From Pedobacter borealis DSM 19626 (GTDB lineage: Bacteria > Bacteroidota > Bacteroidia > Sphingobacteriales > Sphingobacteriaceae), in contig NZ_JAUG01000010.1 of NCBI RefSeq assembly GCF_000708285.2, forward strand, positions 1 to 64,000: a stretch of 64,000 nt of DNA. Direction: 5' to 3'. The number at the start of each line of letters is the position of its first letter. The first letter of the stretch is position 1. The translations under genes and the position numbers were made by a program. Shown here in pieces: positions 5,922 to 52,362 of this stretch. The notes beneath the pieces are model-generated. The model was not told where the DNA came from. It saw nothing but the letters and a program-made list of their open reading frames with translations, and did not search any database.

Positions 5922-5939
5922 TCAGGTCTTGCTAAATAG

Positions 5940-6002
5940 CCCTGATTGAAGTGAAAAGACCGCAAGCGAGGCACGAGTGCGGACTTGCAACGGAAAGCAG
6001 GA
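5940..6002 (+). repeat. Structured dispersed repeat, copy B
   Basis: The outer arms are CCTG (5941-5944) and CAGG (5998-6001). The conserved blocks are GAAGTGAAAA and GCAACGGAAAG. The inner stem is AAGACCGCA (5956-5964) with TGCGGACTT (5978-5986), eight of nine positions paired. The same layout is seen in copies A, C, D and E. Confidence 0.65.
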
Positions 6003-6060
6003 CTGAAGCAGCCGACAGGCAGTAACATTGCGCTCCAAAACCTAATGAAATTTTCAACTT

Positions 6061-7484: not shown

Positions 7485-7518
7485 AAAGTCCCGATGCAAA
7501 TCGGGACTTTCTTGTTTT
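7485..7518 (+). terminator. Intrinsic terminator of sodA
   Basis: AAAGTCCCGAT, loop GCAA, ATCGGGACTTT, followed by TTCTTG. The arms pair perfectly over 11 bases (7485-7495 with 7500-7510). Confidence 0.85.
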
Positions 7519-36250: not shown

Positions 36251-36700
36251 GTGCGCCCGGCACGGGCGCAAACTCTAGGGTGGAAGTCCCGAACGCGCCT
36301 TGATAGTGGGAAGCGTTAACTTAAGGCAAGGGTGTCCTCTGTGAGGAGGAATCTGAAGGAAGCCGGCGGTAAATCTCCGGCCTGACGAACAGGAAGCGAA
36401 TTAGGCAGTTGGATGTGGGTGAGTTTGCATAACAAAACAAAGCCCTAAACTATCCGAAACATCCTGCTGTATATTCGACAGGTATATGGAGAGAAAGTTT
36501 GCGTTCTTACCCGGGGAGATCTGCCGGGCCGTTGCCGGAGGGAGATGCGCCTCCCGAAGGAACAAGGTTCTGTAGCGATACATAACTGGTCCCGCAGAAG
36601 TCAGCAGAGGCCATAGTACTTTTTTTTTTTTTAGAAAGGAAGGGCTGAACATTAAACGTCCGAGTAGTACTACCGGAAATGGGATTACCGTAAAGAAAGC
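36251..36700 (+). mobile_element. Group II intron fragment, 5' part only
   Basis: It starts with the conserved 5' end GTGCGCCCGG, then CTCTAGGGTGGAAGTCCCG and TTAAGGCAAGGGTGTCCTC, GAAGGAAGCCGGCGG and, near the end, GAAGTCAGCAGAGGCCATAG and GAAGGGCTGAAC. These are domain I-III and early domain IV landmarks of bacterial group II introns. The reverse transcriptase ORF and domains V and VI are missing. The 3' limit is uncertain (about 36660-36750). A run of 13 T (36620-36632) breaks the domain IV region. The intron begins two bases after an intrinsic terminator, the site used by class C introns. Confidence 0.8.
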
Positions 36701-39749: not shown

Positions 39750-39773
39750 AAGTCCCGATTTTCATCGGGACTT
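39750..39773 (-). terminator. Intrinsic terminator of the DUF6600 gene
   Basis: On the minus strand AAGTCCCGAT, loop GAAA, ATCGGGACTT followed by TTTTATTTTA. Ten perfect pairs. Confidence 0.85.
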
Positions 39774-51133: not shown

Positions 51134-51451
51134 TTGAAGAAGCTAGAATGTTATTGCAACTATGCGAAATACAGAAAAGGACACAAAATTAGCTGCATTA
51201 CCCCTGCAGCAGAGGCCAAAGTTTCGCCACGTTATTTAAGCGATATGCTCAGGGCTTTGACTGGACAAAATACCCAGCAACTTATTCACGAAAAGTTAGT
51301 TAAAAAAGCAAAAGAAAAACTTTCGACGCCTGAATTGTCGGTGAGTGAAATTGCCTACCAGCTGGGGTTTGAGCATCCACAATCATTTGGTAAGCTCTTT
51401 AAAACAAAAACGCATTTATCGCCTTTGGAGTTTAGGCATTCTTTTAATTAG
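51134..51451 (+). pseudogene. AraC-family regulator remnant
   Basis: The AraC helix-turn-helix domain is intact from about residue 25 (KVSPRYLSDMLRALTGQNTQ, ELSVSEIAYQLGFEHPQSFG, KLFKTKTHLSPLEFRHSFN). The N-terminal ligand-binding half is missing and the residues before it (KLECYCNYAKYRKGHKISC) look like decayed or frameshifted coding sequence with no good start codon. An intact relative would be about 280-300 residues. It lies divergently beside the rph gene. Confidence 0.75.
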
Positions 51452-51469: not shown

Positions 51470-51555
<86 letters not shown>

Positions 51556-51557
51556 GG

Positions 51558-51800
51558 TTATATGATTTTATTTTGTTTCAAATAAATGTAGCCATTTACA
51601 GACTTATAATATTGTTCTCTTCTAAAAGCTTCACTTCTTGAATTAAATTCTTCAAAAAAGTGAATGATGAAAGGGCGCCTAGCTTTCGTTGATTTTACAT
51701 CTCCCCTATTATGTTTGATTAATCTTATTTCCAGGTTTTCAGTACTCCCATAATAGTACTTCCCATCTTTCTCGCTTTTCAAAATATAACTATAAAACAT
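51558..51800 (-). CDS. GIY-YIG nuclease domain protein
   Basis: An 80-residue stand-alone GIY-YIG nuclease domain of the UvrC/YhbQ-like type. The GIY equivalent is FYSYILKS and the YIG equivalent is YYYGST. The catalytic arginine lies in LEIRLIKHNRG and the glutamate in SRSEAFRREQYYKSVNG. The gene is wedged between a 5' half copy of tRNA-Ser and the intact tRNA-Ser. Its stop codon is two bases from the tRNA, so gene and tRNA are probably on one transcript. Homing or repair-like nicking at the tRNA gene is inferred. Confidence 0.85.
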   Translation of the reverse strand: MFYSYILKSEKDGKYYYGSTENLEIRLIKHNRGDVKSTKARRPFIIHFFEEFNSRSEAFRREQYYKSVNGYIYLKQNKII

Positions 51801-51840
51801 AATTATCTTTATTGCACAAAGATTAATTTATTAGTCCCTA

Positions 51841-51899
51841 CTTTCCAAGCGTGCTCGATCAACACTCCCCATAGGGGTCCTTTGGACTGACACCTCTCC
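51841..51899 (-). pseudogene. Displaced 5' half of tRNA-Ser, interrupted
   Basis: Read on the minus strand it matches the intact tRNA from the acceptor stem (GGAGAGGTGTCAG) through GATCGAGCACGCTTGGAAAG and stops just past the anticodon loop. The D-loop region carries a clean 20-base insert (51867-51886). It lacks the 3' half and cannot be a functional tRNA. Confidence 0.8.
51867..51886 (+). mobile_element. 20-nt double-hairpin insert, copy 2
   Basis: CCCC ATA GGGG followed by TCC TTT GGA. Removing it rejoins CACT with CTGACACC as in the intact tRNA. Compared with copy 1 (20926), one stem pair changes from T-A to C-G while staying paired. Both copies sit between CT and C. Confidence 0.55.
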
Positions 51900-52020: not shown

Positions 52021-52362
52021 TTATAGATCTTGTAATTCCATATTTGCAATCCGGACTTCAGAGGTAGTTGATCCATCTGTAAATCTCACCTTAAACCCTT
52101 TAACGGTATATCTACCCGTTGATGAATCATAAGTAATATCTGTATTTAAAAAAGCAAGAACAGTAAAGCCACCTTCCATAGTTACGTTGTCTAACGAGGT
52201 GCTATTAGAATCGAAAAATATATTATAAGTGTACGTTCCATCTCCATAAACAAATGATAATGGACTTCTTTTTTGTACAGTATAAACTGTATTAGCAAAA
52301 CTTGTACTGACATTAATTAAGCTAGTTGAACACAAGCAGGCAATTAAAAATAATTTTTTCAT
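52021..52362 (-). CDS. Small exported beta-rich protein, unknown
   Basis: A 113-residue protein with a signal peptide (MKKLFLIACLCSTSLINVST, cleavage near SFA-NT). The mature part is Ser/Thr/Tyr-rich with short strands (YGDGTYTYNIFFDSNSTSLD, YDSSTGRYTVKGFKVRF). Probably a secreted or surface protein. No family recognised. Confidence 0.6.
   Translation of the reverse strand: MKKLFLIACLCSTSLINVSTSFANTVYTVQKRSPLSFVYGDGTYTYNIFFDSNSTSLDNVTMEGGFTVLAFLNTDITYDSSTGRYTVKGFKVRFTDGSTTSEVRIANMELQDL

Follow-up and report, generated by a model that had tools for sequence, protein, structure and literature searches.

A GIY-YIG nuclease gene at a broken and rebuilt tRNA-Ser(GGA) gene of Pedobacter borealis suggests a little-noticed kind of selfish element in Bacteroidota

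How does a small nuclease gene come to lie between a broken and a complete copy of the same tRNA gene, and what kind of element is it? The locus in question lies in a stretch of 64,000 nucleotides from Pedobacter borealis DSM 19626 (contig NZ_JAUG01000010.1, positions 1 to 64,000 of the forward strand), which we refer to as the window. On the minus strand, the order at the locus is a broken 5' part of tRNA-Ser(GGA), a GIY-YIG gene, 2 bases and a complete tRNA-Ser(GGA). Results from ARAGORN, the open reading frame and Pfam placed each of these where the original prediction, made from the letters of the window, had put it. The features are as follows, in window coordinates.

51470..51555, minus strand: whole tRNA-Ser(GGA) (ARAGORN; Rfam tRNA, 50.4 bits)
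51556..51557, minus strand: 2 bases separating the tRNA from the nuclease stop codon (sequence)
51558..51800, minus strand: GIY-YIG nuclease gene, 80 aa, single-domain (ORF; Pfam)
51801..51840, minus strand: spacer of 40 nt 5' of the nuclease start codon (sequence)
51841..51866, minus strand: broken copy of the tRNA from the D loop to just beyond the anticodon loop, 26 nt, ending in GGAAAG (sequence; blastn)
51867..51886, minus strand: D-loop insert in the broken copy, 20 nt, TCCAAAGGACCCCTATGGGG (sequence)
51887..51899, minus strand: initial 13 nt of the original tRNA-Ser gene, at the native promoter position (sequence; comparison with empty sites)

The segment at 51841..51866 is identical to tRNA positions 21-40 at 20 of 20 positions (blastn). 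It ends in GGAAAG past the anticodon loop as originally read, but the half is interrupted by the 20-nt insert, which that reading had missed. The insert forms two small hairpins (TCC/GGA and CCCC/GGGG) and occurs at a single place in the whole genome searched, which rules it out as a dispersed repeat. The spacer at 51801..51840 contains TAATCTTTG, a putative promoter motif, and its equivalent in less eroded relatives is still tRNA variable and T-arm sequence. Between the native promoter and the intact tRNA there are about 344 bp, with the GIY-YIG gene as the sole gene, so we rejected an integrative element of the tRNA-targeting kind with a tyrosine recombinase and att site. A group I intron was rejected as well, since at the window locus Rfam matched the tRNA alone, with no intron family, and the tRNA is contiguous. 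The window copy was the only tRNA-Ser(GGA) found in its own genome by several searches, one of which scored 150 of 500 candidates. From the spacing, it is plausible that transcription of the nuclease and the tRNA is linked. Beside the locus there are two further open reading frames. One of 113 aa (52021-52362) lies between pyk and the broken half, an interval that is short in the congeners read. The other, of 105 aa on the plus strand (51134-51451), resembles by eye the C-terminal part of an AraC-type regulator and is perhaps a truncated gene. Elsewhere in the window, Rfam matched group II intron domains D1D4 at 36335-36645 and, above the gathering score, Flavo-1 RNA at 5934-6008.

To reconstruct the history of the locus we compared it with congeners, all 99 of which have a match to the window tRNA-Ser(GGA) sequence. 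At nuclease-free loci the order is pyk, a terminator, promoter-like TATACTTTTGCAATCC and the tRNA, and at filled loci, for example that of G009, the broken half comes next after this promoter-like stretch. Because the broken half stands behind the native promoter, where empty loci have the tRNA, the displaced half is the original 5' end, and the nuclease with a new 5' part sits between this end and the native 3' half. The original prediction had asked for a strain with an empty site. One was found in G040, which has the window's 3' flank at an empty locus; blastn matched the pyk stretch and the sequence from the tRNA onward, with nothing between. In the complete tRNA at 51470..51555, the 5' part is by these alignments a replacement copy, with the 3' part and the downstream flank native. 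The idea that a cassette entered the tRNA-Ser(GGA) gene bringing its own 5' part is borne out by the empty congeners, where the promoter leads directly to the tRNA, and by the 3' flank shared with G040. The intact tRNA is identical (100%, 86 bp) in nuclease-bearing loci and 15 empty congeneric loci, and we therefore discarded the idea that a changed tRNA protects the donor. The flanks differ between filled and empty loci, so a target that spans the tRNA start is possible.

The site of insertion had been placed at the anticodon arm, and this did not hold. In L199 and L202, which are MAG relatives, the broken copy extends into the T arm and carries two inserts of about 20 nt, placed one each in the D and anticodon loops; the broken copy of L200 (Pedobacter ureilyticus) is similar. 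At Arg(CCT)-type loci the nuclease start is joined in the T loop. The original junction was probably in the T arm rather than the anticodon arm, and the window's broken half is an eroded version whose stop past the anticodon loop reflects erosion in its own lineage. Each of the 12 named Ser-type loci adjoins tRNA-Ser(GGA) and, by eye, has the D-loop insert, although these loci are not independent because several are from the same strains as genomes with G handles.

A survey of GIY-YIG genes with half-tRNAs, as had been proposed, found that 10 of the 99 congeners searched have this anatomy at this tRNA gene, a patchy distribution but one that excludes chance as the origin of the layout. The nuclease search gave 98 matches in 41 of the 99 congeners, with three matches (G074:C23, G083:C42 and G025:C20) left out of the locus set. 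Congeners and own genome together gave 89 distinct GIY-YIG rows, of which 54 had a tRNA, whole or broken, in the locus and 35 had none. In a tree of 84 rows, which omits 5 of the 89 (fragments or an extended duplicate), a branch with support 100/97 parts 51 tRNA-linked rows and one tmRNA row from 32 unlinked rows. The tmRNA row (L042, 926-1806), counted among the 35, falls on the tRNA-linked side of the tree yet lies just downstream of tmRNA, with Flavo-1 RNA nearby. Each tRNA identity clusters in this tree; the tRNA labels need 9 changes, which is the minimum, against a shuffled mean of 48, in a kind of test that near-copies inflate. A wider, phylum-level tree of 68 rows needs 16 changes where the least is 12, and loyalty to the tRNA is kept for Ser(GGA), Met and Leu and broken for Asp and Ala.

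The relatives adjoin Ser, Arg, Leu, Val, Asn, Asp, Met, Ala, Pro, Cys and Gly tRNA genes. A profile of the tRNA-linked group matched 248 of 395 sampled Bacteroidota genomes and 124 of 170 genera, at a cut-off that also counts some unlinked relatives. Among the best 29 loci outside the own genome, 26 had a complete and 28 a partial tRNA. For 20 loci from the lower part of the printed list, these numbers were 16 and 15, and the three with neither were all near contig ends. As controls, tRNA genes were present in 1 of 20 stretches of the window, which was the finding itself, and in 0 of 35 unlinked GIY loci. All clade members examined adjoin a tRNA except the contig-end cases and the tmRNA case. 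Thus, the window locus is not a one-off but one case of a widespread system with relatives phylum-wide at many tRNA genes. Two outcomes that would have spoken against the original prediction did not appear: the closest clade is tRNA-linked rather than placed independently of tRNA genes, and the half-tRNA is not an unrelated tandem duplication but belongs with the nuclease. In the open PMC literature, which lies apart from subscription papers and preprints, we found no paper describing a link between GIY-YIG genes and tRNA genes in Bacteroidota.

A second example is present in the own genome (L008, G000:C162, 1161-1725) at tRNA-Asn(GTT): upstream of the tRNA is a broken 5' copy that bears a hairpin, and downstream is the nuclease. 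The frame of this nuclease departs from its relatives near the C-terminus, and the nuclease start and terminator stretch are duplicated. The unlinked sister clade (L001-L006 and L009, with the congener loci L049, L053, L054, L078, L085, L087, L092 and L093) is, by eye, flanked by dispersed palindromic repeats, GTCATCCTGAGC..TCGAAGGAC and others. These flanks look like a REP-type association. Several of the sister-clade genes share one conserved position ahead of a fabG-like gene.

Purifying selection maintains the nuclease gene, with a dN/dS for the Ser type of about 0.03-0.09 in pairs with dS > 0.5. Stops or frameshifts occur in 3 of 10 Ser-type copies. In 10 of 10 pairs among G000, G009, G001, G020 and G011, dS was lower in the nuclease (0.02-0.16) than in the adjacent end of pyk (0.22-0.39). 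Fisher's tests of nuclease against pyk, made on six pairs with approximate site numbers, gave p < 0.001 in four; the value was 0.13 for G000-G020, and G000-G027 was at parity (p 0.47). With pyk as the one neighbouring gene compared, a nuclease dS below that of pyk fits recent spread between species, and the nuclease seems to move between species independently of the next gene. We do not claim a cross-order transfer from L198, which is labelled Flavobacteriaceae: its nearest neighbour in the tree is Pedobacter ureilyticus, its flanks, too, resemble those of Pedobacter loci (about 75%), and the label may be wrong.

The window protein (P0001) has GIY-YIG as its sole Pfam match (E 9e-14, 52 bits against a cut-off of 22.6), with the domain spanning residues 2-69 of 80. 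Across 20 aligned tRNA-linked relatives, Y5, Y16, G18, R26 and H30 are invariant and E62 nearly so, which places P0001 in the GIY-YIG superfamily by its domain with catalytic Tyr, Arg and Glu. The predicted structure (pLDDT 96.7) is one bare domain, and neither Pfam nor the model gave a separate DNA-binding domain or long recognition part in the 80 aa. Its best structural neighbours include the branched-DNA nucleases HIGLE and Slx1 (Z 7.5-5.7) and I-TevI (Z 5.8), values below 8 that may mean merely a common arrangement. The fold is also like that of the single-domain GIY-YIG proteins of Slx1 and UPF0213 (Foldseek E 1e-3 to 0.05; Z 7.3-5.1). Slx1 has a second domain and a partner, and to our knowledge neither Slx1 nor UPF0213 has been described as tRNA-linked. 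Because the fold is as near HIGLE and Slx1 as I-TevI, recognition of a DNA structure such as a hairpin is a serious option. A phage origin was dropped, since 50,697 phage records gave 7 matches, each below 60% identity and none from a Bacteroidota phage by name. P0001 was unmatched in the defence library, where two relatives had weak partial matches (E 5e-4 to 5e-3), and it had one weak homing-endonuclease match in PHROGs (E 5e-4), where the two relatives had none.

On balance, we favour the idea of a selfish cassette of tRNA genes whose action resembles that of an intronless (free-standing) homing endonuclease. It provides the part of the tRNA that is lacking, so that there is again one complete tRNA, and the displaced original is a hairpin-bearing broken copy. 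The related nucleases keep to one tRNA identity, and the gene decays in some and forms tandem arrays. In the mechanism we propose, the nuclease would break the DNA of the tRNA gene or of the hairpin, or make such a break more likely, and repair via tRNA homology would copy the cassette into empty alleles and expand the arrays. The host would survive because the whole tRNA is restored. The hairpin would be a structural feature that the system needs, as a recognition or recombination site. The likeness is to a homing endonuclease in action, and we would not file the locus as one. The window gene has the free-standing position of such enzymes, outside introns and inteins and beside its presumed target tRNA. 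It is a poor fit to the textbook homing enzyme in that the resident tRNA (86 bp) is unchanged relative to empty alleles and the protein has no separate DNA-binding domain.

We hold with less confidence, and as a tentative proposal, that this is a new class of minimal mobile element, Bacteroidota-wide, made of a bare, possibly structure-specific GIY-YIG nuclease and a hairpin-marked pseudo-tRNA. In this reading, the hairpin and tRNA homology, not a long recognition sequence, would give target choice, and each lineage would be loyal to one tRNA gene and rebuild the tRNA upon insertion.

We examined the hairpins in the broken copies. In the Asn, Leu, Val, Met, Asp and Ala types, a hairpin that ends in TCC and GGA takes the place of an arm, usually that of the anticodon, in whole or in part. 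A first measure (perfect stem of at least 7) was met in 55 of 89 broken copies, 30 of 96 intact tRNAs and 31 of 352 random stretches; in that test 17 of 106 loci had no broken copy. This measure was too coarse, since it also catches terminators and tRNA arms, and was replaced by the TCC..GGA measure. With this, which was chosen after the motif was seen and is post hoc, hairpins were found in 50 of 78 broken copies as compared to 5 of 84 complete tRNAs with 30-nt flanks and 5 of 315 random stretches, a count that leaves out the 12 named Ser loci (L192-L203) and in which 16 of 94 loci have no broken copy. The ends are constant and the cores variable, with 44 distinct hairpins. The TCC..GGA kind is absent from Ser (0/14) and Arg (0/6), where there are other hairpins. 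Among 12 Asn variants, picked by the pattern that fixed their flanks, 97.6% of cells pair, and two-sided changes are seen in 12 cells; none of 500 shuffles was as high and no slid version came near. In the Ser D-loop insert one pair is two-sided, in 2 of 9 distinct rows; the Asn type is the only one with strong covariation. We infer that the system needs the hairpin because its structure is kept while the letters change. A palindrome-correcting mutational process could give the same picture without selection. We favour a structural role because mere destruction of the target would not require a kept structure.

REP/RAYT systems have a small nuclease-type gene beside short hairpin repeats, with units that are multiplied without the gene; the RAYT is an HUH/Y1 enzyme. 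A hairpin-associated mobile system of this sort, in which the nuclease recognises hairpin DNA and copies the hairpin-bearing broken tRNA in cis and in trans with the tRNA as a landing site, would account for the constant ends and variable cores of most broken copies, the two-sided changes that keep their structure and the Slx1-like fold. Broken copies are also repeated without a nuclease gene between them in L062, L088 and L186, the own-genome unlinked GIY genes lie by eye between dispersed palindromic repeats, and TCCCGA..TCGGGA hairpins occur at 83 places in the own genome as compared to 1 for a reversed control. By contrast, the TCC..GGA kind does not extend to the Ser and Arg types, the unrepeated Ser insert is not a dispersed repeat there, and the window's two TCCCGA..TCGGGA palindromes (7489-7506 and 39753-39770) have AAAG and CTT flanks and look like terminators. 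RAYTs are HUH/Y1 enzymes, whereas the window protein is GIY-YIG alone by Pfam and its units are tRNA-derived. We consider this explanation unlikely.

The arrangement of the loci bears on two further explanations. At tRNA-Leu in G057 there is a tandem array of 8 copies with a period of about 399 bp, and smaller arrays occur elsewhere. Such arrays, some of broken tRNAs only, together with purifying selection on the nuclease, could mean that the device is useful to the host, with the nuclease amplifying tRNA genes in a SegB-like accordion or making tRNA decoys when the cell is stressed, for example by phage anticodon nucleases. In the case of SegB, amplification raises tRNA dosage against Septu (PMC13096335). 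However, most of the arrays seen multiply broken, not whole, tRNAs (L056 has one whole tRNA-Leu and 8 broken), upstream-type broken copies have no 3' half, and the Ser type is in merely 10 of 99 congeners. A benefit of this sort to the host seems improbable to us. In L045, L051 and L163, ARAGORN labels broken tRNA-Val copies that bear a hairpin as Ile(TAT) or Lys(TTT), so the number of tRNAs annotated in those genomes may be too high.

The nuclease and nearest tRNA are co-oriented in 76 of 76 loci, with the tRNA upstream of the nuclease in 39 and downstream in 37. The upstream kind, about half of loci, is the mirror of the window layout: a complete tRNA, a terminator, the nuclease and then a broken tRNA without its first nucleotides. 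Co-orientation, the stop codon 2 nt from the tRNA, and the C-termini of Asn- and Leu-type nucleases, which read through the broken tRNA into the hairpin, would also be seen if the system acted on RNA, with the protein cleaving tRNA or the broken tRNA serving as RNA partner, antitoxin or processing signal in the nuclease mRNA. Hairpin covariation is expected of an RNA too. This is quite improbable in our view, for the arms kept differ among broken copies and the characterised GIY-YIG enzymes that we know of are DNA nucleases. We give almost no credence to a neutral leftover of ordinary tRNA tandem duplication, with the nuclease caught between and a functionless broken copy decaying: duplicated tRNA genes are common in the own genome and broken copies do erode, but the whole clade is tRNA-linked with one tRNA per clade, the 35 unlinked GIY loci have no tRNA, dN/dS is low and the hairpin position in broken copies is conserved across genera, and chance or simple tandem duplication is ruled out by the tree linkage, dN/dS and tRNA-free unlinked controls.

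The selfish cassette that we favour can be compared with several known systems. In fungal mitochondria, intronless endonuclease genes replace the 3' end of a gene by a duplicate, as in Allomyces atp6. As at the window locus, the endonuclease gene lies within a gene, a duplicate keeps the gene whole and the original end is displaced. Those cases are mitochondrial protein genes, whereas the window cassette is in a bacterial tRNA gene. Group I introns with endonuclease genes occur in bacterial tRNA genes, among them Leu(UAA) and Arg(CCU), and the tRNA stays functional. There the tRNA is restored by splicing, whereas in the window it is restored by duplication, without an intron and with the tRNA contiguous.

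The closest system is SegB, a free-standing GIY-YIG enzyme of T-even phages whose gene, like that in the window, adjoins tRNA genes. Its action causes tRNA-Tyr and segB to be amplified in tandem, with the tRNA 5' region recombining with the segB 3' region (PMC13096335). SegB cuts inside tRNA genes, and the same logic may apply to the window cassette on the chromosome. It is phage-borne, whereas the window nuclease is chromosomal and only 80 aa. One SegB enzyme meets many tRNAs, whereas in Bacteroidota there is one nuclease clade per tRNA, and hairpin-marked broken tRNAs, present in the Bacteroidota loci, are not described in the sections on SegB consulted (PMC13096335).

Together, these data suggest that the same arrangement at many tRNA genes across Bacteroidota is a little-noticed kind of selfish element. 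If this is true, a large and overlooked family of selfish nucleases resides in the tRNA genes of a major phylum of bacteria, which would be a bacterial counterpart of SegB-driven gene amplification. It would also explain duplicated, broken and mis-called tRNA genes as well as contig breaks at tRNA arrays. How a nuclease without a DNA-binding domain picks one tRNA gene, and what purpose the hairpin has, become testable questions.
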